From contig BCKL01000019.1 of assembly GCA_001600635.1 (NCBI GenBank), positions 124,001 to 188,000 on the forward strand: 64,000 bases of DNA. Direction: 5' to 3'. The position numbers and the translations under genes were made by a program. This DNA is from Leucosporidium creatinivorum (Eukaryota > Basidiomycota > Microbotryomycetes > Leucosporidiales > Leucosporidiaceae). Under the pieces are notes generated by a model. That model was not told the DNA's origin and searched no databases. It was given only the letters and a program-made list of their open reading frames with translations. Every line of letters starts with the position of its first letter. Position 1 is the stretch's first letter. Shown here piece after piece: positions 16,074-57,218 of this stretch.

Positions 16074-17781
16074 ATGTCGCTCAACCGTACGGAATTCATC
16101 GACCTAGGCTCTCACTGCTCTGAACCATCCTGCCATCAACTCGACTGTACGTCTCTCTCCCTACAGCTCGAGCTCGACGCGCGTCGCTGACTTGACGCCT
16201 TCAGTCCTGCCGTTCAAATGCCCTTCCTGCGCCTTACCATATTGCGGAGAGCACTGGAGGCCTCCTAGTGGACATGACTGCAAGCTGTATGATCCGGCTA
16301 AAGCTGATGTGAGTGAAGAGGCGTGTTGGCTGGGAGGTGGCGACTTGGCGGAGCTGAGGGAAGCTGGGAGGAGAGTTGCAGGGAAGCAGAGAGCAGCGGA
16401 GGTGTTGAGGTGGCTACAGTAGAGCGGCAGGAGCTCGTGCAGTGCGGACGGAGCTGCTGAGTGTCGAGCGAGCGGCTCGAGCGTAGTCGTTCGTTCGCTC
16501 TCTGCTGGCCCAGTCGTTCGTTCGCTCTCTGCTGGCCCAGTCGTTCGTTCGCTCTCTGCTGGCCCACGACGCGCAAGCTGTTGGAAATGGGCAGCTTCGA
16601 CGGCGTGTACTCCCTCTTGTGCTGCAGCTGCTGCTGCTTCAGTCGACTCTCCTCGAGCTCTCACCAGCTCACCCTCGACTCGAACGGCGCCCGAGGCTCA
16701 TTAGGCGCTCGTCTCGGTGGCTTGGATTGACGGTTCTCGGCTGAGGCGCTGTATGGAGAGGACGAGCGCGCATTGTACACAGACCAGAACGGCAGTTGGG
16801 CGGTCGCTGACTCGTCTACGAGGAGAGCTCGCTTCGCTGCTCGGGGCGGGTTCCCTTGCTGTAGACGATCAGCTCGGTCATGCTGCACGGGTACAAGCCA
16901 GTACCTGGAAGCCCTTAGCTTCCAACATCGGCCACAGTCCGTTCATACACCGTTGCTGACCCTCGTACTCTCGCCTCGGCGCTCACAGAACCGCATCCCC
17001 TCCTGCCCGCTCTGCTCCACGCCCATCTCCATCCCCACGAACACCGATCCAAACCTCACCATGGACCACCACCTCTCCACCACCTGCCCGACCCTTCACC
17101 CCAACCTCAAACCTCCAAAAGCCGCCAACATCTGCGCCGAGAAACGCTGCAAGGCCAAGATGATCGTGCCCATTACCTGCGAGGCGTGCAAGGCCAAGTT
17201 CTGCACCAAGCATCGCTTCGGAGGGGACCATGCTTGTGCTGGGAAGCCTGTGGCGGCGGGATCGAAGGTCGCGGGAGGGGGAGCAGGGAAGGGCAAGATG
17301 GCGCTCAGCGGTCTCGCCGCCCTTCGTCGCGCGCAAGAGGCCATCAAACCCTCAACCAACACCTCCAACGCCCGCTCGCCCATCCCTCTCGGCCGCAAGG
17401 GCAATCCCATCGTCATCTCCGACTCTGAGCCTTCCTCGGGCGCCGACTCGGACATTGAGATTATCGAGCCCAAGGCGGCGAGCAAGGTGGCAAACACGGG
17501 GAAGGGAGTCAAGGCGATGGCTAGTGTGGGAGTGGGGAGGAAGGTGGACAAGAGGGCATTGGCGGAGCAGGAGAGTCAGAGGAGGGGCTTGGAGGCGAGG
17601 GCGAAGAAGGGGTGGGTCTTGCTTCTCGGTGTCGGCTCTTGCCCGGGAACAGTGCTGACTCTCACCGCTTCCCACGGCTCGCAGACTCCTCACCGAGGAT
17701 GAGAAAGTTCGCTACGCTACGCTCAAGGCGCTCGACCACAAGAAGGGCGGGAAGAACGGCGAGGGCTGTCGCTTGTCCTAG
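16074..17781 (+). CDS. AN1-type zinc-finger protein, ZFAND2/Cuz1-like
   Basis: Two AN1 zinc fingers in series identify a ZFAND2 (AIRAP)-like protein, a family that links the proteasome/p97 to arsenite and protein stress. Finger 1 is HCSEPSCHQLDFLPFKCPSC, then YCGEHWRPPSGHDC. Finger 2 is CAEKRCKAKMIVPITCEACK, then FCTKHRFGGDHAC, with CPLCSTPISIP between them. The first intron (from 16169) joins LD to FLPFKC. The second, at 16309-16988, is 680 nt long, far above the usual 50-70 nt here; the join KAD to NRIPSCPLC copies the animal pattern, so one gene is preferred over two. The C-terminal third is low-complexity and ends in VRYATLKALDHKK after a last intron at about 17613-17684. It contains VISDSEPSSGADSDIEIIE, two SUMO-interaction-like motifs with acidic flanks. 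Confidence 0.8.
16485..16565. repeat. three exact 27-bp tandem repeats inside an intron
   Basis: The unit AGTCGTTCGTTCGCTCTCTG plus CTGGCCC occurs three times without a break at 16485, 16512 and 16539. It lies in the unusually long second intron of the AN1 zinc-finger gene. Only three units and no spacers make this a minisatellite, not a CRISPR array. Confidence 0.9.
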
Positions 17782-18047
17782 ATGCTGGGAGTAGAGCAGC
17801 GCTCTTTAGTACATGTTGTCATCACTACACCCGCATTTTTTTTTCGGTGTTCCGTCATCTATCAGCAGTCGACTCTACGAGAGAAGAGCGGAGAAAGAAG
17901 AGCAGCGATCCACGGCGGTCGTTCTCGCTCGATCTCTTGTCTCTCTCTCGTCCCGACCCTCGCCCTCTCTCGCGCTGCGCTTCATCTCAAGCTATCGACA
18001 AGCTTTTTCGGCACTATGGCTACAAGTCTTGCCCTCTGCGCAACAGC

Positions 18048-19309
18048 TCATGCCTTCTCCTCGCCCCTCGCCCTCTTCGCCGACCTCTCTCCATCATCCT
18101 CCTTGATCGACTGGCTGACGGCGGTGGTTTGGGTGGGGAGGAGGCCACGGAGGGAGAGGTCGTAGACGACTGTGTGAGGAGGAGTGGGTGCGTCAGTTCA
18201 GCTCGGTGAGGCACAGGAGCGAGGATGTTGGAGAGGGCGGCGAGGCAGGAGGAGGAGAGGCAGAGTAGTCGAGCGGGCGAGAGAGGGACAAGAGAAAAAG
18301 AGAGAGGGTAGAGAGGACGGGGTAGAAGCAGCAGAAGCGGAACAAGACTCACCCTCCTCGAGCTTCTTGACGTCGTACTTAATGCCGTCGAATCGCTTCC
18401 TCAGGGAGTCGTTCTTGAGGTTGAGCAGGCCGAAGGCGGTAGAGAGCTCCTTGGAGAACCTGCGTGAGCGATGGTGGAGTGGAGCGATGGGGGGCGAGGG
18501 GGGAGCGAGGGAGATGGAGCGACAAGGAGGGGCGGTCAGTCTCGGCGCTGAGGAATCGAAAGCGGAAGAGGGGTAGAGGGCACAGAACGTACTTGGAGAA
18601 CTGCACGGGAGCAGAGTAATCGCCCAGAGTTACGCGGTTGACGGCAAGACGGGACTTGAGGAGCAGCACAGAGTCAGCTAGAGTGAAGAGTTGGCGCCGA
18701 GCAGGACAAGGACTGACCAGCTCGTTGAGCAGCGAGATGAGACTATGGAGGTACTCCTCGGTGGGGAGGAAGAACTGATCGCGCTGTTCGGGCTTAACTG
18801 TAAGATGATACCGCTGTCAGCTACTCCGCTCCTGCCCTCCTTCGCACGACAGCGGTCGGTCGCGAACTCACTGCCTAGAGCCTCGCCAACCTCCACTTTG
18901 CTAGCCACTTCCTCACTCTCCAAGAACCTACTGACGACGATGATGAAACTGGCGTTCTGTAGGGACTGGGAGAAGGAAGGGGAATAGCGGTAGAACTGAG
19001 TCGAGGGGATCAAGCCGGCGAGGGTCGAGAGGGAGGTGCGGAGAGCGGGAAGGAGGGGCTGTAGCTGACTGAGCACCTCGGAAGCTGTAGGTTACCAAGA
19101 GTTGGGCTCAGCGACGGCGACGAGGACAGAGAGGGAAAGAACGCACTCTGTTCCTTGCCCACCGAGTGCACGCGGTTCACTACAGCCAAGCAAGCCCTCT
19201 CTGTAGTCTCTACTCCCCTCACTGCCTCGCGAATCTGCTCCCTCAGCTCGGCATCGGCCTCCAGCGAGGATTTGAGGTAAGAGAAGTCGACGGGCGAAGG
19301 GGCTGTCAT
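18048..19309 (-). CDS. translin
   Basis: Translin binds single-stranded nucleic acid as an octamer and, with TRAX, forms the C3PO RNA-processing nuclease. The minus strand gives the family from start to end over about seven exons. The start is MTAPSPVDFSYLKSSLEADA. Then come QFYRYSPSFSQSLQNASFI, EYLHSLISLLNELV, RLAVNRVTLGDYSAPVQFSK, and the best-conserved block FGLLNLKNDSLRKRFDGIKY with DVKKLEE. VVYDLSLRGLLP follows and a short Lys/Glu-rich tail ends at 18048. GDYSxP and LKNDSLRKRFDG are diagnostic for translin rather than TRAX. The gene converges with the AN1 zinc-finger gene and leaves a 266-bp shared 3' region that includes an A/T-rich run near 17830. Confidence 0.9.
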
Positions 19310-20214
19310 GTTGGAGGCTGAGGTGTGTCGAGTTGTGGGTTGCTAGCTGGATAAGAGTCGGTGCGAGCGGTGCTACAAAGACGAGAAGATGAGGGTGAGA
19401 GGGAGGGAGGGAGAGAGACGCGACGGGCAGGGTTGCCATGTTTGGAGTGAGATAAAGGTGCAGCTTTCGGTGCACCGCGGCTCACGAGTATCTCGACGTA
19501 CACTCTTCAGAGTGCTCTGTGCTCTGTTGAGTGATCTGAGAGCTCCTAGCGCCCTGCAGCTCACCGCCGAGCTTCGCATCTCGCCTAGCCGGCGGTGGCT
19601 GCTGTGCACGCTCTTCATAAAGGTCCCAGGAGGCTCATGTAAATTTTTTACCATCTGAGGGTCGCCTTGGGTTGTCAAACTTGCTGCAGTAGTATCAGAA
19701 GAGGAAAGGCCCCTGCTCGGCGAAGGTTCGGAGTGCTTTGCGGTCTCTGCACCGAGCTCGGAGCCTCCTCTCAGGGATATGCAGAGAGTATGAGTGGGCT
19801 GATTGTCTGACTGCTTGCCAGCAGTAAGGGAGGGATGTCATAGCCTGCTCATGGATGCCTGCCATGCTCCGAGCCTCCGAATCTGGGCTGGGAGATGTGC
19901 CCGAGGTGGCCGACCTGGTGTCTAGTGTACTCAACATCAAGGGTGGTCCTCCCCTGTAAGTCTGAGGAGGAAGAGGGCTAAACATAGGCTGCCTGTGTCT
20001 GCCAAGCTCCAATTGCAGGTGCTTTCAGAGTGGCCTCCTGATCTTGGGCCGGGTGCAGAACCGCACTGAGCCAAGTGCCAGGAGTGCAAGGATTGCTCCC
20101 TGCCTTCGCGCTTCTTCCACTCACCTGTTTGAAGTTGAGTCCCTTCTCTCTCTCTCATCTCTCTAGATCACACACTGATCTGGTTGTTGTTCGCCCGCCC
20201 TCAAGGCCTGGTGA
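19310..20214. other. start of gene-poor repeat island
   Basis: The first 100-150 bases are the translin promoter. From about 19680 the sequence has fewer CpG steps than the flanking genes and contains only short unrelated frames. I recognise no gene, but its composition matches the repeat island that follows, so old repeat DNA is likely. Confidence 0.45.
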
Positions 20215-20975
20215 GCCACTCCGACCCCGAACCCACAGTCATTGCTAAACTTGCTCCTCCTCGGTCCTCGGTCCTCGGTCTCGCCTTCCCCTTCCTCCGA
20301 CTCCACCTTCCTCCCTCACCACATGTACCTCCCTCCTCGCTCCCCTTGTCAACCCTTCCTTCCATTGACCTAAGTTGGAAGTGGAAGAGCGAGGAGGAGG
20401 GAAGGGAGGAGGTGAGGGCCGAGATGGCGAGATGGGCAATGTGCTATTGGGATTAGAGGGAGGGTTAGTCAGATTAGAAGAGAAGGGATTTTGGGCCTTG
20501 CTGGTGTAGAAAGCATTGGCACCTCGAGTGGCTTTTCCTTTGTCAAACAGGAAAGCTCACGGAGAGCGCCAGGTTCTCTATACCTACACCATATCAGCTT
20601 CCAATTCATTCGACCTTCCCGCCGACCCCTTTGTTGCTGCCAACTCCTCCTCGGTCTTTGCTCACAGCCCTTGCTCAAGCTTGCAGATGGTTGGGGTAAA
20701 AGGGTGGATGTTGGTTGATGGATAACCTAGTTCTTGATTGTAGTCACCATCTCCTCCCTTCTCTCTCTACCTCTCACCTCACCTACCACCTTTAGTTCTC
20801 CCATCCTATCTCCTCCCTCACCTCCCATGCACTCGTCATTCACAACTTAGACCCATTACACTATTCTTGTGTCTCAACACCAACTCCCAAGCTTTGCCTA
20901 CGTCTCCCCTTGCCTTCCTTGCCCAAAAGCATCTTGCCTAGCTCAAGTTCTCAGACTTGAAGCTGGTGCTCCCCT
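20215..20975 (+). repeat. dispersed repeat, copy 1 (inverted relative to 24850-25395)
   Basis: This stretch aligns by eye, in opposite orientation, with 24850-25395. Shared strings include CTCCTCCTCGGTCCTCGGTC, GTAAAAGGGTGGATGTTGGT and ACTATTCTTGTGTCTCAACA-like text near the 3' end. Copy 1 differs mainly by C-to-T and G-to-A changes at CpG steps: CATTGCTAAACTTGCTCC here against CATCGCCGAACTCGCTCC in copy 2. It also carries an extra block at about 20373-20586. The family is not recognised; there is no coding capacity. An old transposon remnant is likely. Confidence 0.75.
20373..20586. mobile_element. about 210-bp insert inside repeat copy 1 with ACCTA direct repeats
   Basis: Copy 2 reads GACCTACACC without a break, while copy 1 reads GACCTA, then about 209 unrelated bases, then ACCTACACC. 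The 5-bp ACCTA at both edges looks like a target-site duplication, so this is probably a nested short insertion. I see no terminal inverted repeats and no coding sequence, and cannot assign a family. Confidence 0.5.
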
Positions 20976-21212
20976 GCACTCGAGGCAGGTAAGAGGCAGA
21001 TGTTTTCCCAAAGAGACTCGGAGTGTAAAGCACTTGCCAGACACTTGCCTATACTGCCTCAGCAGGTCTGTACTTGTTTGGGATTAGAGAGTAAAACATG
21101 GCTGAGAGCACTGCTGGGTCCTCTCCGAGCCAGAGGGCTATGAAATGGAGGAGTTCAGTACAAGAAAATCTGCAAAAAAAGGATGGCCGGAAGGGCTGAG
21201 AGGCAAAAAGAG

Positions 21213-21297
21213 AGCTCCAAACCGGGTTTGAACCAGTGACCTGACGATGAACAGAAAGCAACTGCAGTCGACCGCTCTACCACTGAGCTATCGGAGC
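21213..21297 (-). tRNA. tRNA-Cys (anticodon GCA) with short intron
   Basis: On the minus strand the acceptor GCTCCGA pairs with TTGGAGC. The D arm is GCTC-AGTGGTA-GAGC. The anticodon loop holds GCA after CT, and the T arm ACTGG-TTCAAAC-CCGGT is fully paired. Base 73 is T, the cysteine discriminator. A 13-nt intron (TTGCTTTCTGTTC) fits after position 37, leaving an anticodon stem with one T-T mismatch. It is the outer, complete copy; the related copy at 27344 lacks the 3' acceptor strand. Confidence 0.8.
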
Positions 21298-21498
21298 TAG
21301 ATTTGTTGAGTTTTGGATTCACATTGGTCCTCCTCGACCTCAACAGATTACCTCTTTGCTGTTGTTCTTCACCAACCACAGTGTGGGTAGGCTTGACGGC
21401 TCCAGTGACATTGCCAACCTCCGCCCCACTCCCAGCTCTCTGAGAGCGCCAGTGGGAGTTGTATCAACAACACCAAATCTTTCCCCTACCCTCTTGGA

Positions 21499-22011
21499 GT
21501 GCTTCAGGGCAACGCCAACCCTCGGCTGAGCTGCAGTGAGCGCGAAAGCCAAGAGGTTGAGCAGGCACCTGTTTGCTACCTTGGGGTGCAGGTGGGGGTT
21601 GGAGTGAATCAAGAGGAGGGGTGGGTGGTTGTCCAAATAAAGGTGGAGCAGGAGATGTGCTCTATTCCCACTTTTGACCTTCCCTCTGCAAGTTGCGGCG
21701 CCATCATCTACTGCAACTGCTACTCCAGTATCCTCTACCTTGACCACTACTCTCTCGCCTCCTACTCAACCATCTCCCTCCTCTGGATAAGTCCCCTCGC
21801 TACCATCTGGGGGCGGAAGTGCGCCAGCAGCGAGGAGTGGCTCAAGACCCCACTCGACCAAGGCGACTTTGGGCTTATCAACCGCGGCCTCCAGCTTCGA
21901 GGTCTTTGGGCCAAGTGGATCTACTCCCTTCTCCCCTCCTCCTCCTTCCACACCCATTATTTCCAAGTCATGAGGTCAGCTCTTCCTCGCCCCCCTTTGC
22001 CAATGGTCTGA
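21499..22011 (+). mobile_element. LINE ORF2 C-terminal remnant (Tad-like), left copy
   Basis: The frame encodes 170 residues that resemble the stretch after the reverse-transcriptase domain in fungal Tad/I-type LINEs. APVCYLGVQVG stands where these have R-Y-L-G-V-P-L-G. Further on, LDQGDFGLINRGLQLRGLWA, followed by KWIYSLLPSSSF, matches the common G-G-F-G-L-x-D-x-x-x-Q-x-x-A-L-x-x-(R/K)-W-L pattern. Only the last part of ORF2 is left, with no start, no catalytic YxDD region and no 3' tail recognised. It is a 5'-truncated fossil caught between two tRNA genes. The second copy is at 27624-28136. Confidence 0.55.
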
Positions 22012-22263
22012 CGCGCTTTGCTTCCACAGTCGGCCCCTACCGGCCCACCTCAACTGTGCAAGGGTTACAAGGCCTGGCTCTTCTCTGCAGACCTCCCCCC
22101 GCCCTCGCACTCCAGTGGCCCAACACCAGCGAAGCAGCTTGAGCCCGTCTCCCTCCTTTCTCATGCCGGCCCAGCCTCCAGGAGGCAAAAAGGACACCCC
22201 GGGTTCTCCTGGAGACCGCCAGGGTGCATGGTAAAAAGTAAACTCCAGCAAAACGGGTCTTGG

Positions 22264-22328
22264 TGAACAGAGTGGGGTTCGAACCCACGCACTTTCGTAC
22301 CAGCGGATAAGTCTTGCAAGCCAGGAGC
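22264..22328 (-). pseudogene. 3' half of tRNA-Leu (truncated copy)
   Basis: This carries the T arm (GTGGG-TTCGAAC-CCCAC), variable arm, 3' anticodon stem and part of the intron of tRNA-Leu, exactly as in the whole gene at 28389-28499. It stops inside the intron at the edge of the 1,110-bp repeat. The 5' half, including the A box, D arm and anticodon, is missing, so it cannot make a tRNA. Confidence 0.85.
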
Positions 22329-22689
22329 TAACACATGGCGAGCATGAGCACGAGCAAGTGATGTGGGCCAAGAGCTGGGGCAGGCCCAGAGCAGGGTGAT
22401 GATGGGATGGGGGTGGTGTGAGGTGGCAGAGCAGTCAGGAAGAAGCCAGCAGTGAGCCGAGCTGCAGGGACCTGCAGTTGTCAGTGCAATCTCAGCCGGC
22501 TGCAATCTGGGGCCTCTGCCAAGGGGCAATTGAGGGAGGGCCGAGGTCAATGACCGGAGCAGGGGTAGGGGGCTTGGGACTGATGTGAGAGAGATCTGAG
22601 ATGGGATTTGGTGGTCAGGTGCTAGGTGGAGTTGGAGCCTTTGCGGGAGTCATGGGATGAGACACAGGCCAGCATCCCCTCTCCTGGCA
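22329..22689. other. start of the 5,015-bp insert between the direct repeats
   Basis: The unique DNA between the two 1,110-bp copies begins here. No gene or repeat is recognised in this part. Confidence 0.4.
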
Positions 22690-23450
22690 GGACCTCTCTT
22701 GTCTTGCCAGTTGCACCAAGCAAGGGGCAGTGTTAGCAAGCGAGTGACTAAACTGTCAGGACAGTCAGTTGCCCAACTCTCTCCTGCATCAAAGCCATCC
22801 ATCCTCACTGTCAAGTGTCTATGCTTTGCCACGGTCTCCCAATCTAAGAAGTGGAAGTTGTTGGCTCCGTTGGAGGTGGCAGCCTGGTCAAGGTGCTGGT
22901 AATACCCTCCCTTGTGGGCAAGGTCTTGCCGGACCAGTGAGTTATCAATAATGATCCAGGACACCTCATTGAGCGGCTTGTAGCACATCTTGCGCTCAAG
23001 GAAGTTGAAGTAGCAAGCAATGATGGTGATGGCAGGGGCGGAAGAGAGGCTGTGGATGTGCTGCCAGATCTGGACGGCCTCCCGCCATCTGTGGTGCTGA
23101 AGAGGGCTGGAAGTGTGGCGCGAGGACTTGTTGAGTGTCCAAGGGAAAATGAGAGGAAGTGAAGAGTTTCCTGCACTGAGTCGCGGTTGGTGGGAGGTGA
23201 GTAGTCTTGGGCGTCAATGAGGTTGACGTACTTGCCCAGGATGATCTTTTGCGTGTTGTTGACCTTGATGCCCTCTCGCGCAAAGTTGCAAGAACAGAGG
23301 AGAGGGAGACACCGGTCTTGGAGGTGACGGGAGCTCTGTATTTGGCCTTGAGCTCAGCACACTTGAGGGCCCAGACGGGACGCGAGAAGGTAGGTGAGGG
23401 ACCTGTTGTGGTGGCAGGGCAGCGGAGGCGGCAGCAATGCAAGCCTCAAG
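22690..23450 (-). pseudogene. decayed coding remnant of an unidentified repeat family
   Basis: Minus-strand text reads like protein in pieces: EGIKVNNTQKIILGKYVNLI and DAQDYSPPTNRDSVQETLHF, then WREAVQIWQHIHSLS, ACYFNFLERKMCYKPLNEVS and LAHKGGYYQHLDQAATSN. The pieces lie in more than one frame, so the gene is broken in several places. No domain is recognised. The setting within repeats suggests a transposon protein, perhaps a structural or accessory one. A host pseudogene is the alternative. Confidence 0.4.
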
Positions 23451-23932
23451 GGCAGCCAAGATGCCTCCAAACCTGCAAAGGGAGACGGCAATGATGCCTT
23501 CCCTCTCACTACTGCTGTCCTTGCTGGCACGGGCCCTTGATTGAGGCGGAAGGGTAGCTGGCAGGTGGCTGGTTGTGGAGCGGCAGCAAGAAGGCAAGGC
23601 TGGCAACCAAGGATGTTGTCCACATGAGTGTAAAGACCTGATATACTAGCTCTGTTGTTAGAGAGTATCGATGATGAGAGAGTCTTAGCGAATAAGTTGT
23701 ACGTTGTTAGTTGGTTTGCTTCTTGACGAGAGGGACACTTAGATGGTAAGCCCTGTTGGTTTTCTCTGAGCTCAGTCTGCTTTGCTTCGGAGACTGTCAA
23801 GCCTTGACTGTGAATTTCAGAACGAAGAGAGAGGAAGAGCTATGTAAGCTCCTTATATACCCATCTGCACCGCCCCTTGGGCGATGCCCAAACCGCCCTT
23901 GCCAGCGCCCTCGCCAGCGGGCCGCGCCGCCC

Positions 23933-24517
23933 CTCGGGCCAAGGGGCGGCCCACCTCGGCCAAAAAGTTCAGCTAGGCTCCCTTGCGACCTCTTCTCACC
24001 TTGTAGTACATGTGGGGGCTCAGGATTTGGGAGAGGCGGAGTTTGTTAGCTCAATGTGCAGCCTGCCAAACGGCGACTCTTCTAATGTCCTACAGCAGCC
24101 TGCAGACGCCGCTCAACTTGACTCGCGCGCACGGGCCGTGCGGTGAAAGGAGCACGGGTCTACTAGTGCTCCTCACTGGGACCGCAAGATAACAGGACTG
24201 TAGTGTGTATAACAAGCTAAAGAGAAAGGGATCTACGCTCAAATGCCCGCACGTCTCTAAGTCCGAAGTCGAGGGAAGCGTCGCAAGGCGCCGCGCCTTG
24301 CATGCGGGGCCCTTCGACTCTTTTCGCTCTGCAGGCTGCTGTAGACCAAGTTCCAACAGAGCAGGTCGCGCTTGGTCATGTACAGATCTATAGTATTACA
24401 GATACCGTGCCTGCACCTGTGTAGCATCACATGTGCTGTAGCTTGATCTTGCTAAATTGAGCTCAAGGGGAGCCTGGCTGAACTTTTGAGTTGAGCTCGG
24501 CCGCCCCTTGCTCGGGC
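23933..24517. mobile_element. element with about 55-bp imperfect terminal inverted repeats
   Basis: The left end reads CAAGGGGCGGCC, a short gap, then AAAGTTCAGCTAGGCTCCC with TTG. The right end, read on the minus strand, gives GCAAGGGGCGGCC, a similar gap, then AAAGTTCAGCCAGGCTCCCC with TTG. The ends are about 585 bp apart and the interior has no credible protein, so a non-autonomous DNA transposon or a foldback element is likely. The exact outer ends and target-site duplication cannot be fixed by eye. Confidence 0.6.
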
Positions 24518-24849
24518 GGTCACGTGATCTCCTCTCTTTGTCCTCCTCCTTACTTCCCTACATCCTCCAGAATTGCTGAGTACTCCTTGCTAGTTGTCCA
24601 TAGTTGCTGTGTAGTGCTGTAGTTGCATAGTACGCTAACGAGCAACCTACATCTTCCAACTTGGGCTGTTGGCCGAGCGAGTGGTCTGGCCGCTCTCCTT
24701 TGGCAACGGCGCCAGTCCTAGGCGTACAGGCTCGCTTCGGCAGAGCAGCGGCTGACGCAATTAGTACTACAAATCCCCTCACTGCTCTCCTCGGTTCCCG
24801 CAAGTGTTTCCTGGCTATTTGGGTGGGAGTTGAATGATTCCGCCTACAG

Positions 24850-25395
24850 GGAGCACCAGCTTTGAGTCCGAGAACTTGGGCTAGGCGGCCTGCTTTTGGG
24901 CGAGGAAGGCAAGGAGAGATGTAGGCGAAGCTCGCAAGTTGGTGTCGAGACACAAGAACAGTGTAATGGGTCTAAGTTGCGAAAGGCGAGTGAATGGGGG
25001 ATGAGGGAGGAGAGAGGATGGAAGGGCAAAGGTGGTAGGTGAGGTGAGGGTGTAGGAGAGAAGACAAGGGAGGAGACGACAACTACGACCAAGAACTAGA
25101 TTATCCCTCAACCAACATCCACCCTTTTACCCCGACCGACCGCAAGCTTGAGCGAGGTGCGGGAGGCGAAGACCGAGGCGGAGTTGGAGGCGGCGAAGGG
25201 GCCGGCGAGAAGGTCGAGCAAATCGGGAAGTCGATGGTGTAGGTCGATGGGAGGAAGGTTGGACAAGGGGAGCAAGAAGGTGCTCGTGGAGGAGGAGAAG
25301 GTGGAGTCGGAGGAAGGGGGAGGCGAGGCCGAGGACCGAGGACCGAGGAGGAGCGAGTTCGGCGATGACTGTGGGTTCAAGTCAGGGTCGCTCTC
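24850..25395 (-). repeat. dispersed repeat, copy 2 (inverted relative to 20215-20975)
   Basis: Read on the minus strand this aligns with copy 1 at 20215-20975 across nearly its whole length, without the 210-bp insert. It keeps more CpG steps (CATCGCCGAACTCGCTCC), so it is closer to the original state or was less mutated. It includes GTAAAAGGGTGGATGTTGGT and ends near GGTGCTCCCTGTAGG, where likeness to copy 1 stops. Confidence 0.75.
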
Positions 25396-26249
25396 AACGT
25401 CGAATGAGCGAGTGTGAGAAGCGCGAAGGAAGGGAGCGATCCTTGCACCGCCGCAAGCGCCCGCGCGCTCGATCGTACGGGCGCTCCGCTGGCGGAGCTA
25501 GAGCGGGCGAGCAAGGCTCCCTGCTGATCCCCAAAACCCTCTGCCAATTCCCCTGCTTGTGCGGGGCTATCTTCAGGGCCCCTGCTGTTCTGCGCCGAGC
25601 CCTGCAAAGCGCTAGCCGACTGCTCGTGGGTTGTTGGCTGAAGTTCACTTGCGCACCGTGAGCGCGTCCGTCGCCCGCTCACCCAATCTGGGAGAAGACT
25701 GTGGGTCTTCTCAGTGAGGTGACCGGCAATGACTCCCTTCTTGGGGGCTCCAAGCTGCTTCTTGTGCGCCTTGCAAGGAGGGGGGAAATGATGATGATGT
25801 TGTCCTTGTCCTTGGTGTTGTTCCACTTCTTGGTTGCGCCATTCTCAGCTGGGGCAAGGGCAATGGGAGCCGCCTTTGGCGCCAAGCTGGCACTGGTGTG
25901 GAAACCTTCCTCAGAGCTTGTGGAGGCGAAGGCACTTCTCGCAGGACGGCGGGAGTCAAGGTTGCCTTTGCCTTTTCACTTCTTGCTCATCTCTTCACCT
26001 TGACTCGCTTTGGCTACAGCTCAGCTCACCTTCTACGAGCAATAACCCACCTGCCTCCTCTGCTCGTGTCTCGTGAGGCTTTTCTGGAATGCTTTGGGCC
26101 AACGGCCAACGGGGGGGAGTTCTGCAATTCCCATTTTTGGTCTGCCTCCAAGGGATACTCCTTCCTTTCCCCCTTCAGCTGCTTCGCATCTGGATGGCGA
26201 GCTGAGCTGTCAACGCAAGAGAAGGCCTCAGCGCCAGGGATAGCAATGC
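25396..26249. other. repeat-island spacer
   Basis: No gene is recognised. Minus-strand frames near 25679-25959 (for example the Lys/Asn-rich NGATKKWNNTKDKDNIIII) may be part of an old repeat but have no known domain. Confidence 0.35.
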
Positions 26250-26720
26250 ATAGGGGTGCTGTAATGATGTAGTGGACTGATGTCTGTACTTTACTCGTGA
26301 GTGGACTTTGGTTGGCTTGCTCAATCAGCTTCTCCCAAAGGCTCACTTTCCTGTCCGTTCCGTGCTCAGAGTGTGAGGCTTCCGCTTAGGATACCAGATG
26401 GATTCCAGGAAGCAAGAGGCAAAACTCTCAGCTGTTATATTGTACAGTGAGACCCCTGTCTTCCCCTGCTGGCAGTGCTCTGTGCTCACTCCTTGCTTCC
26501 CTTGTGCTTGCTCCAAGCCCATCGACGCCAGACTCGGACCTGGTCTTGGGGGACATCTTTTGGGTGCTGTAATACTCCAGAGTGTCGTCATAATCATGTC
26601 TCTTGACACTAGACCTATCTGAGCTATCTCTGTGTAGCCTCTAGGGGCTCTCCTTCTTCCTTTTGAGGCAGGCAGCTGATCTTGGTGCTCGTAGAGCAAG
26701 CGGAAGGGGGACAGGTCCAC
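26250..26720 (+). repeat. diverged dispersed repeat, copy A
   Basis: This aligns in patches, in the same orientation, with 30310-30790. Shared strings are GATGTAGTGGA, CTTAGGAT followed by CCAGATG and GATTCCAGGAAG, TAGCCTCTAGGGGCTCTCC, and GGTGCTCGTAGAGCAAG. Copy A has fewer CpG steps than copy B. The family is not recognised. The patchy likeness over nearly 500 bp marks two old insertions of one element or one end of it. Confidence 0.6.
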
Positions 26721-27343
26721 CACAGAAAGCATCCAGGGAGCTGTAGCTAGGTATGAGAGGGCGAGCAAGCTGTTCTTGCTTCTTGTTGGTCGTATCTTCT
26801 CACGCGGGGCTACATCTTGCCGGGCTCTCATAGTCGGCAGCTGGCTGAGCGGTGGTGTTCTGAGCTCAAGTGACAGATCCTCCAGTGGCCTTCTTCTTCG
26901 CTTGGCTGCGGGGAGAGCCTGCGCAAGACGAGGTGGCTGGTTGCGCACCGGCTGAGGCAATCCTGGTGCAGCCTTCTCGGCCTTTGCAATAGTTGCCGGG
27001 TTTGGTCCACCAGATGAACTTGTGGCTTACCAGCGTATCACTCAGCAGCGGCCCTCTCCCCTGTGCCCTCTCTTCTCCCCTCGCCCGCCTATGCCAAATG
27101 ACCCTCAGAGTACAAACAAACAGACACTCTACACCTTTTTTCAGCCAGCCGGCACCAAGACTACAGTCCTTGCTTCTTTCCTCCTTGCGTAGTTGAGTAC
27201 ATCCCCCTCCCTTGCCTCCCTACTCTGCCTCCCTCCCTTGCCTCAGCACACCCTATCTGTCTGGCACTCTCTCTCCTTCTACTCAACTTCACCGGTTCTG
27301 CTGGGACCACCACAGTGCATCAGCCACTGAACCATACCCTGTA
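26721..27343. other. end of the 5,015-bp insert
   Basis: Minus-strand frames run through here (up to 26960) but match nothing I know. The stretch ends at the sharp edge of the right 1,110-bp repeat, reading ACCATACCCTGTA just before the truncated tRNA-Cys. Confidence 0.4.
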
Positions 27344-27422
27344 AAACCGGGTTTGAACCAGTGACCTGACGATGAACAGAAAGCAACTGCAGTCGACCGC
27401 TCTACCACTGAGCTATCGGAGC
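27344..27422 (-). pseudogene. tRNA-Cys copy lacking its 3' acceptor strand
   Basis: The body is identical to tRNA-Cys at 21213-21297, but after the T arm the sequence runs into TTTACAGGG instead of TTGGAGC. The acceptor stem cannot form and the T73 discriminator is gone. It should not give a working tRNA. Confidence 0.8.
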
Positions 27423-27623
27423 TAGATTTGTTGAGTTTTGGATTCACATTGGTCCTCCTCGACCTCAACAGATTACCTCTTTGCTGTTGTTCTTCACCAA
27501 CCACAGTGTGGGTAGGCTTGACGGCTCCAGTGACATTGCCAACCTCCGCCCCACTCCCAGCTCTCTGAGAGCGCCAGTGGGAGTTGTATCAACAACACCA
27601 AATCTTTCCCCTACCCTCTTGGA

Positions 27624-28136
27624 GTGCTTCAGGGCAACGCCAACCCTCGGCTGAGCTGCAGTGAGCGCGAAAGCCAAGAGGTTGAGCAGGCACCTGTTTG
27701 CTACCTTGGGGTGCAGGTGGGGGTTGGAGTGAATCAAGAGGAGGGGTGGGTGGTTGTCCAAATAAAGGTGGAGCAGGAGATGTGCTCTATTCCCACTTTT
27801 GACCTTCCCTCTGCAAGTTGCGGCGCCATCATCTACTGCAACTGCTACTCCAGTATCCTCTACCTTGACCACTACTCTCTCGCCTCCTACTCAACCATCT
27901 CCCTCCTCTGGATAAGTCCCCTCGCTACCATCTGGGGGCGGAAGTGCGCCAGCAGCGAGGAGTGGCTCAAGACCCCACTCGACCAAGGCGACTTTGGGCT
28001 TATCAACCGCGGCCTCCAGCTTCGAGGTCTTTGGGCCAAGTGGATCTACTCCCTTCTCCCCTCCTCCTCCTTCCACACCCATTATTTCCAAGTCATGAGG
28101 TCAGCTCTTCCTCGCCCCCCTTTGCCAATGGTCTGA
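27624..28136 (+). mobile_element. LINE ORF2 C-terminal remnant (Tad-like), right copy
   Basis: This has the same 170-residue frame as at 21499-22011, with the DQGDFGLINRGLQLRGLWA motif. The two were copied together as part of the 1,110-bp segment, not by two separate LINE insertions. Confidence 0.55.
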
Positions 28137-28388
28137 CGCGCTTTGCTTCCACAGTCGGCCCCTACCGGCCCACCTCAACTGTGCAAGGGTTACAAGGCCT
28201 GGCTCTTCTCTGCAGACCTCCCCCCGCCCTCGCACTCCAGTGGCCCAACACCAGCGAAGCAGCTTGAGCCCGTCTCCCTCCTTTCTCATGCCGGCCCAGC
28301 CTCCAGGAGGCAAAAAGGACACCCCGGGTTCTCCTGGAGACCGCCAGGGTGCATGGTAAAAAGTAAACTCCAGCAAAACGGGTCTTGG

Positions 28389-28499
28389 TGAACAGAGTGG
28401 GGTTCGAACCCACGCACTTTCGTACCAGCGGATAAGTCTTGCAAGCCAGGAGCCTATAGGAACCTAAAGCTGGCGCCTTAACCACTCGGCCATCTGTCC
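28389..28499 (-). tRNA. tRNA-Leu (anticodon UAG) with about 32-nt intron
   Basis: On the minus strand GGACAGA pairs fully with TCTGTTC. D arm GCC...GGC follows TG, with the class II A-box text TGGCCGAGTGG. The anticodon arm is CCAGC-TTTAGG-[intron]-C-GCTGG with anticodon TAG, and the long variable arm is TACGAAAGTGC. The T arm GTGGG-TTCGAAC-CCCAC is perfect, and base 73 is A as leucine tRNAs need. The intron sits after position 37, as in other fungal tRNA-Leu genes. The edge of the 1,110-bp repeat falls inside this intron. Confidence 0.87.
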
Positions 28500-29250
28500 C
28501 AAAGTAGGGTACAGAAGCTCCAAGTGCCATCCCTAGCCTACGAGGAGGTCCAGCGGCCACTTTTGAGCTTCGGTAGGGCCAGAATGGCCGTTCTTCAAGC
28601 TGCAAGCTACCGCTGGATGTGCAGGCTGCAAGAGAGTACATCAATGATGTGGTGTGAGTATGTAGAGCAGCATGGATACCCTGATGTGCAGCACGGGGCA
28701 AGGTAGAAAGGCGCTTGAGGTGAGGTCCCGGCTGCAGGAGCTTTGCCTACTGTACGCCAAGCACTACACCTCCAGAAGCTGGTACCCAGCTGTTTGCCTG
28801 GTGTGCAGGGTCAGGCTGTGAACACTCAACCTTACCCATGCCGTGACCTGGGACCCAGCGTCTTGTGAGGTAGCTCTCGCCGAAGCTTGAGCCCGGGAGT
28901 GCCAGAGAGCTGCAGAGGATAGAGAGCTGCAATATTGCACTACAAGCGTGTGCTACCTGCTATGGAATACGTGAAGCTGCTGCCCAAAGTGCTGGGCTAA
29001 ATGAGAACATGTCTCTTTCCGGGTCTGAAGGCTTCTGAGGGGGTCAGCTATTCGAGTGGGCACACCTTCAATAGGCTACCTCTCAGGGAAGCTGCAGCAG
29101 ACAGATGCGGTAGCTGCAGCAGATGTATGGGCTCACTTCACTCATCTTGTCTGTCATTCCTCAGCTTCAACTTATGCTGCACCGCTGATTTGTGATGCAA
29201 AACTTCTATATTTGGTTATGAGGACTTTAGCTAAGCTCTACTACAAGGCT
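28500..29250. other. repeat-island spacer
   Basis: I recognise no gene or repeat here. The first bases are the promoter side of tRNA-Leu. A TTTGTGATGC-rich AT patch lies near 29190-29230, next to the GST pseudogene end. Confidence 0.4.
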
Positions 29251-29840
29251 CTAAACTTGGAGGGCGGCCTTCTCGGCGAGGGCCTCGGCAACGCAAGGAA
29301 GCGTGAGGAGCTTGTCGTGCCAGGCGACAACGGCGGGGAACTCCATCTTGGGGTCGGTGTGGTTGGGGAGGAGAGCATTGATGCCAAAATTGCTCCAGGT
29401 GATGTAGGAAAGGTCGGTGACGGTGAGCTTGCTGCCAACAAGGTACTCTTGCTTGGAGAACTTGATCTCAAGGATGCTGAGGACACACATGACCCCCTTG
29501 GCGTAGCGCTCAACACCGTAGGGGATCTTCTTAGAGTGAACATCTTGAGGTGGAACGGCTTGACTGAAGTAGGGCTGTTGGAGAAGTGTCAGCTCTGAGA
29601 GTTGGCCGAGGCAAGAGGAGCGTGGTAGGGACATACATCCTGTCCAGAGGCCTAGAAGAACAGCCACTTGTTGAGAAGAGCGCGCTCCTTGGGGTCTGAG
29701 ACGAGGAATCTGCCCTGTTTTGTTATCTGCAGATCACCGAGCAGGTCAGCTTCGGCACTGGGAGACAGGATGTAGTAACTCACAGGTCTCGGCAAGGTAG
29801 AGAAGGATAGCCTTGGACACGCAGAGGGTGAAGGTTGCTG
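29251..29840 (-). pseudogene. glutathione S-transferase (Ure2-like) pseudogene, 3' part only
   Basis: The minus strand reads FTLC..KAILLYLAE, a still spliceable intron with CTGACC branch site (about 29705-29785), GRFLVSDPKERALLNKWLFF, a second intron-like stretch, then PYFSQAV, KKIPYGVERYAKG and EYLVGSKLTVTDLSYITW. The end is FPAVVAWHDKLLTLPCVAEA followed by LAEKAALQV and a stop. This is the back two-thirds of a fungal Ure2-like GST. The glutathione-binding N-terminus is missing, a stop codon replaces a Gln after LNKWLFF, and the frame slips once near AVPPQDVHSKK. Kept introns show a DNA-level copy, not a retrocopy. The likely parent type is the gene starting at 63490, though the two overlap too little in this window to align. 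Confidence 0.75.
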
Positions 29841-30309
29841 TTCTGGTTTGCCAAAGATGGTGGAGGTGCAACCTGCAGACATCCAAACATCAGTGAGCAG
29901 CTCGGCGATGGTCTTCCCCTGCTCTGCCCGGCCGCGGCGTCAAGCACGGCTGCTTCTCTCCTCTCTAGAGAGGGAGAGTGAGAGGACGGGGACATAACTG
30001 CTGGGGTAGAGCCCAAGAAAAAGCGGTTCTCCCTCCTGGTCAGACAACAGCTGGATGCGAAGGCGAGTAGCGAGCGGCGAGCGCGCGGCAAAAAAAAGGT
30101 CAGCCCTTTTTGAGCTGTGCGCTGGGCAAGGATCACTACTTGGTCTTGAGTCTTGCAGGTGTGCTTACCATGAAACCTTGTAGCGAATGCCCCGTGCAAA
30201 GACAAGGAAAGAAGATCCAGTCGACTCCAACAGCCAAGTCGGCGAGCCTCCGCCGAAGCGAGGGCCATGTGAAGGCCCTGACGCCTTTGTCCGGAGGAAA
30301 GCGATGGAA
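29841..30309. other. repeat-island spacer
   Basis: No gene is supported. The minus strand has an ATG-led frame, MALASAEARRLGCWSRLDL, that ends at a GTAAGC donor, and could be the first exon of something lost or of the repeat at 30310. I cannot follow it further. Confidence 0.3.
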
Positions 30310-30790
30310 AGGGGGTTCGTAGAGATGTAGTGGAATACACCTGTAGGCTTCTGCTGTACTAGAAGTGACCTTGGCGGACTAGCTCGTTCAACTTCTCCTC
30401 AAGGCTCGCTCGGCGATGATTGTGAGCGTAGGAACTCCTCTTAGGATTCCGGATGAGATTCAGGAAGGAGAGAGGCAGAAGCTCCCCCTTTTATAGGCTA
30501 CAAATTGACCCCTATCTGTGAGGGAATCCTCGCCGACTTGCGAGATCCCTTGAGGGAATCCTCGGCGCTCGAGGGATCCCTCGAGCCGCCCCCGGATTCC
30601 CTTCTTTGCAGCACAGCCTCCTCCAGCCGCTTCGTCGGCATTATCCCAATCTCGTATAGTTTCCTACAGCCCCCTCGGGGCTCTTCTCCCTGCCTCCCTT
30701 GAGGCTGAGGAGAGGCTTCCCTTCAGCCTCGTGCTCGTAGAGCCTGAGGGCTTCCGTGCGGACTCGCTTCTGCAAGCCCCTCTCTGGTGT
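30310..30790 (+). repeat. diverged dispersed repeat, copy B, with palindromic core
   Basis: Partner of 26250-26720. It keeps CpG steps and includes CTTAGGATTCCGGATGAGAT, AGCCCCCTCGGGGCTCTTCT and GTGCTCGTAGAGCCTGAGGG. Within it lie two copies of GAGGGAATCCTCG (about 30522 and 30553) and a perfect 20-bp palindrome, GCTCGAGGGATCCCTCGAGC, at 30567-30586. Copy A lacks this core, which is either lost there or gained here. The family is unknown. Confidence 0.6.
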
Positions 30791-30947
30791 ATAAGAAGGG
30801 CTGAGAGGGATGCGGATCTTGTCTTCCTTCGCACCACAACTCCCCGCTCTCTCAGCTCTTCACAGGCCAGCTCTCCTCTCCTCTCGCATCACTCTCCTTC
30901 TCACACTCTCCAAAGTCCCACCAGCACATCAAAAAGCGGACATGCAT

Positions 30948-32695
30948 TCACTGCTCCCCCCTATCCGCCTCCAACCACTCAGCATACTTCCTCAACCTCT
31001 CCTCCTCCCTCCCTTGCTCCTCCCTTTCCTCGCGCTCATCCCCAAACCCAGTGCCCGCAAGATCGACGCCCTGCCCCGATTTCTTGTACGTCTTGATAGA
31101 GTCGTCGGCGAGGAAGGCGGCGATGGACCGGCCGGCGAAGAAGCGGGCGTTCATTTTCTGTGTTGGGGGGGAGAGGAGAGGAGGGGAGAGGAGAGGAGAG
31201 GGAAGAGAGAGAGATTCAGTGGAGAGTGGGGAGAAGGAAGGGAGAGAGAGAGAGAGGTGAAGGGACGAACGGCGATGCAGGCTTGCGCGGCAAGGTCCTC
31301 TTTGAACCGGACGGTGATGATGCCTTGTTCCTCCTTCTGTGAGGTGGGGTGAGCGAGGAGGCAAGTTAGCGGGGGGTAATAGAACCAAGCGACCGAAAAA
31401 AACCAACAAAACTCACATCATACAGCGTCACATTGGTCACCTCGCCCATGGTCTCGCACTCGTCGCGCACGTCCTCCTTGAGGTCCAGCAGCAGCGTCGC
31501 GTCTTGCTCCAATTCCTGCAGGGTGAACATGCCTTGTAGGACGACGAGCTTGCTGTACTTTGCTTTGGCTTTGAGCGCGGCGGTCGAGTCGTCCTCGTCG
31601 GAGGACCAGTCGGTGAGCTTCCTGTAAGAGGGAGGGGTGGGGGTCAGCGGGAGGAAGAGGAGGAGGAGGAGAGATAGGGAGGGAGGGAGGGAGGGAAAAA
31701 GTGGGAAAACGCACTGCTTGAGCTTCTCTGCCCGTTTCCCCGCCTTCTGCTTCTCCAACTCGGCCTTCTTGGGGTCCTTGTCCTTCCCTCCCCCTCCCCC
31801 TCCCTCGGCCTTCTCCTTCCCCTTCCCCCCACCACTCTCCTCACTATCCCTCTGTTCAAATTCGGCCTTCTTAACCCTCATGACTCCCTCCCCACTGCCC
31901 AACTCCAACTCGGTCTCGTCAAACAACCTCACCGCCAATTCCACACTAGCCTCCTGGAGATAAACCACCAATGCCTCCCCTTTGAACTGTCCTTGCTCGT
32001 TTTTGTACATTTTGATCTTGGGCCGCCCGTCGCCGTCCTCGAGGATGAGACCCGCTTTGGAGAAGACGGAGGAGAGTTGGGTGAGGGTGGTGGAGGCGGG
32101 GAGGGAGGAGATGAAGACGGCGGTGGGGGCGCGAGGGGCGCGAGGGGTCTTGTTCTTTTTGCTTTTGCTCGTGTGGTCCGGATCGTCGGCCTTTCGCTTC
32201 TTGGCTTCGCGGGCGAGGACGGCGGCGACGGGAGCCTGGAGGTGCGAGTGCGAGTGGGAGTGGGGAGGCGAGGCAAGTCAGCTTGCTTGCTGGTCGAGGT
32301 GGACGAGAGCTACAGTAGAGAGGGAGGGGGAAGCAACGTACAGATTCATCGACACCTGCTACCGAGTAGGCTGCTTGTTGAGCCGATACGAGCTCATCCT
32401 CGAGCTGGAGGGGGAGAGGGAGAGGGAGTGAGTCGCCAACAAGCTGTAGAGAAGTAGAGCGAGTAGAGAAGAGAAGAGAAGGACTGACTAGTGGTACCCA
32501 TGCTCCTCTAGTTTCCTCCCACTCCATTTCTGTACCATCATCTGCTTCGAAAGCCCATTTGTTGGACTGTTTGTTGAAGTGGATGCGAGGGTCTGAGGCG
32601 AACGAGGCGGAGGAGGATGAGGAGGAGGTGGAGGGGGATGCTATGGGGGCTGATCCACCTGCAGCTGCAGGCACAGTCGAATTGGGCGGAGGCAT
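30948..32695 (-). CDS. Tat-SF1/Cus2-like U2 snRNP splicing factor
   Basis: The human HTATSF1 and yeast Cus2 family binds SF3B1 and the U2 snRNP through RRM and UHM-type domains. The minus-strand start is MPPPNSTVPAAAGG, then FNKQSNKWAFEADDGTEMEW, the typical N-terminal block. A Lys-rich linker precedes RRM1: APTAVFISSLPASTTLTQLS, then KIKMYKNEQGQFKGEALVVY. After an acidic/Lys stretch comes KLTDWSSDED and the second RRM, KLVVLQGMFTLQELEQDATL, ECETMGEVTNVTLYD and then (about 31355-31260) EEQGIITVRFKEDLAAQACI, RFFAGRSIAAFLAD. The tail is acidic. About six exons are seen; introns inside the gene are G/A-rich on the plus strand. The ATG at 32695 is preferred over an in-frame ATG at 32776, whose extension is only Pro/Ser/Leu repeats. 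Confidence 0.85.
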
Positions 32696-33344
32696 GGCAG
32701 ACGAGCTGAGATGGTCGGGGAGGGAGGGAGAGAGAGAGAGGGAGGGAGGGAGGGAAGGGTTGGCTCTGCACCACATCTTTGTAGCATGACGATTTCGAGA
32801 CTCTTAAACGACTGCTCTACACCAGACTAGCCTCCTTCAGTCGTCGACCTCAACACACCACTTCCGCTTAGCTTCAACCCTCGCCCGCTCTCTGCGCCCA
32901 GCTCCCTCCTCAAGCACACGGGCATTACACTCGAGCAACACCTAAATAGCACCAGTAGCCATCTCCTGCTCCCCAGCCAGCCCTCCCAACTTCAATCTGA
33001 CTCTTCAATTTCACCGACCCCGAGCAAGTAGCTCACTCGACTTCCGCAACTACACACTGCAGATCGCCCGAGTGCTCGCAAAGGAGGACCGAGGATCCAG
33101 CCCTCTCATCGAGCTCCCTCGGGAGCACTCCACCAACCTGGAGCTCAGCAAAGACAGGCTCCAGGAAGCCCGTCAACCTGCCCATTTCGGCGGGGGAACC
33201 GAGTTTCGGAGCGCTTCTGCTTCCCTCGGGTTCAATGTTCTTCGGGAGGGATGATGAGACCCTTTCTTGCTCTTCTTGCTCTCCCTTCTCTGTCGACTTT
33301 CGTGAGCTGCTTGAACACCCGACGCAGACGACAAGGACGACACG
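32696..33344. other. divergent promoter region with GA-rich repeat
   Basis: About 650 bases separate head-to-head genes. Near 32718-32760 lies a GGGAGAGAGAGA/GGGAGGGAGGGA microsatellite just upstream of the splicing-factor start. I see no credible gene; a 60-codon frame at 33072 has no known relative. Confidence 0.45.
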
Positions 33345-56162: not shown

Positions 56163-57218
56163 TGCTGGCGATGCAGAGCGGGAGAGGCGTCCAACTGCTT
56201 AAGGTTTCGAAGGGGGAAGCTGGGCCGCTGTTGAGGTGCTGAAGGCGGGAGGGTGTCGAGGCGCTGACGTGAGGGAGCAAGGGGTTGAGAGGTCGAGTAG
56301 AGACGGGCTCGTAGAGCTTTGGCAAGCGATAGAGATGGCGAGAGGAAGAGAGAACCGCTCGACTGGCTGGGAGAGCTCTTCTCACCGGGGCTTGATCGTT
56401 CCTCGCCTGCGTTCATGGGGACAGTCGGCTCCAACTGTGGCTCCAACTGCAGTAAGGTTGATTTAAGTTAAGGCGGCGGAGGCCTTCCCGGAGCAGGGCG
56501 TTAATTCACTCAGTCTGGGCCGACGGGGCTTTGCCTCTTCGGGCCAAAATCGTACCTTCTTCGCCTCGAAGCTGCTGAACCCCTCCTCCTCTGCAGCGGA
56601 GTCCTGTCCCCGAAGCCGACTAGCGAGCGACTCAAAGCAGGAAGAATCCACTTTACCAGCATTTCGGCGTGAACGAGCTGCTGCGATTTCATCTCCCGGC
56701 TCAGCGCTCGCCTCCCCTGCGAAATCCACGACGAATTGCTCGTCCACGCGAAAGTGCTCGGCTTGCAAGGCAGGGAGGGGATCTCGGAGTTTCGCGCATG
56801 CGACGAGGAGTCAACTTGTTGCTAATATTCTCGCCTCTCGGAGCTGCTGATCCTCATCAGCTGGAGGTTCATGGAGGGCAACTCTCTCGGTGTTCATCAA
56901 GACGACGTTTGCCCCTGCTGCTGGTCTCCTCGCCGTCCATCGCTCGCGTACCGCCTCCCCAGCTGGCCCGCAGCGATAGGCCTCCGAAGGCCGGGCGGCT
57001 GTGGGGTCGGCCTAGTCTCGAAGCGTCGGGCTCAAGAGCAGCAGGACGTGCTCATGCTCGCTCGCGAAAGCCCGTGCGAGCAGCGCGATTAGGAAAGCAA
57101 TCTATTCCCTCTGCCCAGCGGCGATGAAGACAAGATCAGATGTGGTGAGAAGTTGGCGGGCGACCATCGAGGACCGGATCCGAGCCCAGCTCGAAAGGTT
57201 CCACTGTGCAGGAAGGTA
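56163..57218. other. intergenic stretch
   Basis: Over 1 kb holds the HSF-gene promoter and the 3' end of the phosphatase gene. Opposed frames at 56463-56768 (-) and 56669-57127 (+) have no recognisable domain, so none is supported. Confidence 0.4.

Follow-up and report, generated by a model that had tools for sequence, protein, structure and literature searches.

A 64,000-nucleotide stretch of the basidiomycete Leucosporidium creatinivorum (GenBank assembly GCA_001600635.1, contig BCKL01000019.1), hereafter the window, carries a transfer RNA (tRNA) gene for cysteine and one for leucine, and between and across them lie two direct repeats that enclose an insert. We write R for the repeat, I for the insert, A and B for the left and right outer flanks, and C plus a number for a contig; the window is C19:124001-188000 and the layout as assembled reads A-R-I-R-B. 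Genome searches covered the 27.7-Mb assembly in its 63 contigs. The tRNA introns, gene content and repeats by themselves point to a eukaryote, probably a fungus; a search of the assembly for 5.8S rRNA gave no match, with a family that responds in only 9 of 14 control genomes, all of them prokaryotic. Exact extension shows the two copies of R to be direct and to agree over 1,110 bp with 0 mismatches, with 5,015 bp between them and a unit of 6,125 bp, and the initial annotation, which had described this arrangement, was correct to the base. The pair is the sole repeat of at least 150 bp that megablast finds in the 64-kb window, and a more sensitive comparison of 17001-33000 adds one pair only, inverted and 82-84% alike. 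Against the whole genome R returns its two full copies plus 7 partial matches that are either tRNA-sized or 66-78% alike. At such a length, an origin of the pair by chance is out of the question.

Both edges of the repeat fall inside tRNA genes: the left edge is 7 bases in from the 3' end of tRNA-Cys, and the right edge lies within the tRNA-Leu intron. ARAGORN, run with introns allowed, and Rfam agree with the first description that each gene is whole on one outer side, tRNA-Cys at the left and tRNA-Leu at the right. The Rfam tRNA model gives 51.5 bits to the whole tRNA-Cys, 50.6 to the whole tRNA-Leu and 33.2 to the tRNA-Cys copy at 27345-27416, which is without the last bases of the acceptor stem; the tRNA-Leu remnant in copy 1 was not reported by this search, and a loose Rfam threshold over 20-29 kb added nothing credible. 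ARAGORN places the tRNA-Leu anticodon one base off (tta), and reading by hand from the stem CCAGC/GCTGG gives UAG, a leucine anticodon. Beyond itself, tRNA-Leu with its flanks matches solely its own truncated copy, the closest other match to tRNA-Cys is 92% over 73 bp, and the likeness to a tRNA-Cys on C45 is confined to the gene (89 bp). R also holds a diverged stretch (21657-22144, 78% to C4 over 495 bp) that is, by eye, like a long interspersed nuclear element (LINE), with a 170-aa frame that has no Pfam match.

Since tRNA-Cys is whole only at the left and tRNA-Leu only at the right, the old locus is the left flank, one R and the right flank, in the order tRNA-Cys - 1.1 kb - tRNA-Leu. Both genes are intact only in this A-R-B reading, that is, only against the outer flanks, which bears out the empty site reconstructed at first inspection. 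A 1,110-bp segment can be placed at 56,764 positions in the empty-site window; by a count made after the case had been seen, 54 of these would leave an end in each of the two tRNA genes.

Table 1. Features of the locus (window positions) and the most alike tRNA-carrying duplications on other contigs
Feature	Position	Strand or orientation	Description
tRNA-Cys(GCA), whole	21212..21297	-	13-nt intron; ARAGORN with introns, Rfam
Repeat copy 1 (R)	21219..22328	.	1,110 bp; tRNA-Cys body, diverged stretch and 3' part of tRNA-Leu
Truncated tRNA-Leu in copy 1	22264..22328	-	3' half and part of intron; from the sequence beside the whole gene
Insert (I)	22329..27343	.	5,015 bp; diverged repeat debris; near-identical copy elsewhere in the assembly not found
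Old solo long terminal repeat (LTR), Ty3/gypsy-like family	23629..25713	-	interrupted by two later pieces; relative is the C24 LTR pair, 922 bp, TGAGAAGACC...GGTCTTTACA
Piece of ~610 bp within the old LTR	23898..24509	.	C24 relative has 46 bp there
Second solo LTR, inside the old one	24845..25447	.	CCGCC on both sides
Repeat copy 2 (R)	27344..28453	.	identical to copy 1
Truncated tRNA-Cys in copy 2	27344..27422	-	insert sequence takes the place of the 3' end of the acceptor stem
tRNA-Leu, whole	28386..28499	-	34-nt intron; UAG by hand reading; ARAGORN, Rfam
Duplication on C3	C3:256500-266499	inverted	1,116 bp, 99.6%; tRNA-Gly; spacer 4.15 kb
Duplication on C26	C26:444000-453514	inverted	2,337 bp, 98.8%; two tRNA-Gln; spacer 2.8 kb
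Duplication on C13	C13:193000-202000	inverted	536 bp, 98.5%; tRNA-Asp; spacer 0.47 kb
Duplication on C45	C45		at least 545 bp, 98.7%; tRNA-carrying local duplication
Duplication on C12	C12		at least 685 bp, 98.4%; tRNA-carrying local duplication

What kind of DNA is the insert? Its whole length is found only at this locus, and a near-identical donor was not found in a search that leaves very common words aside and scores the top candidates alone, in an assembly that may be incomplete. Parts of it, 28 to 516 bases long, are 72-97% alike to sequence elsewhere, the highest identity being 97% over 160 bp, and its outermost sequence (150 bp at the left, 510 bp at the right) matches nothing else in the genome search. 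Pfam gave 0 matches in 13 open frames, a sample of the frames present. What can be recognised is layered: the old solo LTR is bordered by ATGAG and GTGAG, alike at 4 of 5 bases, and a second solo LTR is nested in it. The ~610-bp piece that also interrupts it has 43-bp inverted repeats (23940-23982 and 24468-24510, 84% alike) and a part, 24143-24302, that is 84-97% alike at several other places. The left flank holds, at about 20085-20978, a longer inverted copy of the nested LTR that has diverged to 82-84%. The relative of the old LTR at C24:154574-164233 is a Ty3/gypsy-like element whose frames, by eye, are gag, protease, reverse transcriptase and integrase (the sequence read stops short of the end of its interior), with C runs on both outer sides that would fit a five- or six-base duplication. 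The insert thus looks like old and diverged repeat debris in which solo LTRs are nested, unlike a mobile element. Given the solo-LTR layers, the empty Pfam search and the unmatched ends, it resembles random repeat-rich chromosome more than a self-moving unit, and those layers, bordered by short like sequences, suggest that it was ordinary chromosome before it arrived here. We accordingly reject the insert as a mobile element, and R as the LTRs of a retrotransposon is rejected as well: R starts AAACCGG and ends CAGGAGC, not TG...CA, and the outer flanks differ.

The two copies of R differ at 0 of 1,110 positions (upper 95% bound 0.27%), whereas the LTR pair of the C24 element in the same genome differs at 9 of 922; at the divergence of that pair, the chance of seeing no difference in R would be ~2 in 100,000. 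Selection for identity seems unlikely because R includes the diverged LINE-like stretch. The event is recent, or conversion homogenised the copies, or a single sequence was written out twice by the assembler, and the first two of these had been anticipated in the initial annotation. A bias like that of repeat-induced point mutation (RIP) was considered as a clock and set aside; in four comparisons, each using at most the three best aligned pieces, transitions outnumber transversions in context-free counts (81:61, 7:2, 58:39 and 68:21).

We favour a real, recent and local rearrangement by replication-based repair, with template switching during replication restart as the preferred mechanism, a tentative reading to which we give a probability of roughly 0.4. 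A replication fork would have stalled or broken at one of the two tRNA genes, and the free end would have been extended for ~5 kb on another template, the source of I. It would then have returned, on the sister or the homologue, to this locus at its other tRNA gene, and synthesis running on through R into the right flank would have left R copied twice with I in between. The observations behind this reading are the A-R-I-R-B layout, the position of both R edges inside tRNA genes, the empty Pfam result for the 13 frames of I and its layers of solo LTRs. This route, from a break at one tRNA gene to a return at the other, is preferred because of the segment order, which is that of a described class of rearrangement, and because of precedents for breakpoints at tRNA genes.

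The segment order is that of cis reciprocal duplications, written A-B-E-B-C in the report that describes them, which in BRCA1-deficient cancers have been put down to replication restart with template switching in a proposed model (PMC10482687). The order, the direct copies of the duplicated segment (B in that notation, R here) and the foreign piece between them (E, here I) are shared. In the cancers, the inserted piece is predominantly 50 bp-1 kb and comes from a distant site, and the duplicated piece spans 1-300 kb (PMC10482687); here the insert is 5 kb, the duplicated piece is 1.1 kb, the source of the insert was not found in the assembly and there is no known repair defect. We do not file the locus as a cis reciprocal duplication because, among the best candidates scored in this assembly, a copy of the inserted piece at a source locus was not found. 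The breakpoint precedents come from yeast. Breakpoints of segmental duplications in budding yeast coincide with autonomously replicating sequences (ARS), termination sites and tRNAs, and Pol32 is needed (PMC2518615), and work published in 2025, also on yeast, cites stalled forks at tRNA genes as promoting changes in copy number (PMC11790251). The budding yeast duplications, attributed to broken forks and to microhomology- or microsatellite-induced replication, are likewise segmental with breakpoints at tRNA genes, but they are selected events with known parents (PMC2518615). In humans, an insertion with duplication at the receiving site has also been described (PMC5120786).

Several points weigh against template switching. 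The template of the insert should persist, yet the best identity outside the locus is the short 97% match noted above, and the missing donor is the weak point of the model. The cancer duplications combine a short insert with a long duplicated piece, and the three tRNA-carrying duplications examined elsewhere in this genome whose limits are all known (C13, C26 and C3) have their edges outside the tRNA genes. Finally, the assembly at the locus may be wrong. If the locus is real, it is a tidy, well-preserved example of a kind of rearrangement already known, and a natural sequence that cleanly records replication-based repair at two tRNA genes; should it prove an assembly error, it serves as a useful warning about the assembly.

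Such an error is the strongest rival, though we regard it as somewhat unlikely. The chromosome would read A-R-B, or A-R-I joined elsewhere, and R would have been printed twice in placing I, which might derive, for example, from a different haplotype or from some other locus that also carries R. The worry voiced in the initial annotation was justified by the state of the contigs. C46 (60,264 bp) was compared in reverse with the first 60,264 bases of C45: probes of 3,073, 3,161 and 1,500 bp are identical, with coordinates that sum to the length of the contig + 1, and from these three probes C46 seems to be a mirror of the start of C45. A second mirrored-looking pair, C54 and C55, has 21,660 bp in each contig; in the 7,661 bp that were compared, each is the reverse complement of the other except at one base (N against T). 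At least 4 of the 126 contig ends lie in tRNA genes (C25, C45, C46 and C58, where C46 mirrors C45), and an exact 82-bp overlap within tRNA-Asn, between the end of C58 and the start of C25, looks like the product of short-word graph assembly. Such a graph could print a chromosome A-R-B and a circle R-I as A-R-I-R-B. Moreover, four partial tRNA matches occur among the 63 scored of 485 candidates, and only the copy at 27345 lies away from a contig end; the missing donor of I also fits an error. On the other side, the window has an N count of 0, and reads must presumably have linked R to I and I to R. Both tRNA genes here are no long exact repeats, so a break at a multi-copy tRNA gene, as at C25 and C58, is not directly applicable. 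Searches with R, I and both flanks returned only repeats, tRNA genes and one gene paralogue, and a second version of the locus was not found.

The explanation first put forward, an extrachromosomal circle of R + I (6,125 bp) that enters the single R of the old locus by one crossover, is in our estimate unlikely. It yields exactly A-R-I-R-B with identical copies, direct and at both ends of the integrant, and so explains the layout equally well; a circle from outside the genome would also make the loss of the donor natural. Proposals that circles re-integrate have been made to explain region B of wine yeast (PMC3053389) and, in humans, segmental duplications (PMC7450558, PMC7188851). However, R and I must already have been connected at two points of the circle, which requires that R lay beside I somewhere else or that two fragments were ligated. 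Neither a circle nor an R-I source locus was found, R and the whole of I occurring only here in the assembly, and no mobile or self-replicating element was recognised in the 13 frames of I. The wine yeast region is likewise a segment without local origin in a fungal chromosome for which a circular form was proposed, but it occurs as permuted copies at several sites with little or no similarity at the joints (PMC3053389), unlike the one-crossover model; here there is one copy in one permutation, and the crossover would draw on 1.1 kb of homology. The circle therefore survives as a source of the exact product and is unsupported over its rivals. It has no evidence of its own, and is possible but not favoured over template switching, which gives the same product without an extra molecule.

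We consider it quite unlikely that the insertion is old, with a long duplication whose copies conversion has kept identical. Gene conversion is possible because tRNA genes often lie in local duplications in this genome, where near-identical examples (C3, C26, C13, C45 and C12) are common and could be maintained by conversion, and I is full of old insertions. Conversion tracts usually end short of repeat edges, however, and R is identical out to its outermost base on either side. Nor does conversion homogenise every local tRNA duplication, since others in this genome have drifted to 82-95%. The very long target duplication made by a transposable element, also raised at the outset, falls away, since neither element ends nor an encoded enzyme was found in I (13 frames; unmatched ends).

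More interesting as a lead is the wider pattern of tRNA-carrying local duplications. We compared 20 pairs of like tRNA loci, each pair on one contig, chosen from the 63 scored matches among 485 candidates by equal or near-equal scores on one contig. In 15 of them the likeness runs well past the gene, over 269-2,337 bp at 82-99.6%, several of these extents being lower bounds that end with the fetched sequence or, on C25, with the contig; ten are inverted and five direct. In the remaining 5 it ends about at the tRNA (86-110 bp). Because the pairs were chosen by score and shared contig, 15 of 20 is no genome-wide rate. Besides the cases on C3, C26 and C13 in Table 1, inverted tRNA duplications that are more diverged or partly covered lie on C3, C10, C11, C12, C25 and C45, and direct ones on C4, C11 and C12. 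These duplications resemble the locus on C19 in reaching kilobase scale around tRNA genes, some with high identity. Those with both edges in view (C13, C26 and C3) are inverted and hold whole tRNA genes well inside, whereas the copies on C19 are direct and their edges cut the tRNA genes. As a control, a megablast self-comparison of 145,827 bp (the window plus nine stretches, each 5-10 kb long and selected because of tRNA genes or repeats, the mirror C54 excluded) found 0 other direct repeats of at least 150 bp and four inverted ones (C25, C13, C26 and C3); it is blind to repeats farther apart than one stretch, such as the C24 LTR pair.

One could go further and propose that tRNA genes are habitual points of break and restart in this genome, where stalled forks would copy pieces of up to kilobases nearby, direct or inverted, and the tRNA set would grow by local duplications, the locus on C19 being the youngest case and the one with both switch points in tRNA genes. 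We hold this broader proposal to be quite unlikely. If the locus is real, a genome with many tRNA genes in local duplications of graded likeness would let one ask how tRNA genes seed duplications. By title and the start of the abstract, we found no earlier report of nuclear tRNA-carrying duplications of such a kind, the nearest being a study of centromere rearrangement (PMC10813616).

The right flank holds repeats of its own. At window positions 30268-30865 lies another LTR-like repeat, 90-91% alike to copies on C5 and C24 and present as a split copy on C29. The region of a glutathione S-transferase gene at 29198-29847 has an 82% inverted copy at C19:188077-188733, just past the right end of the window.

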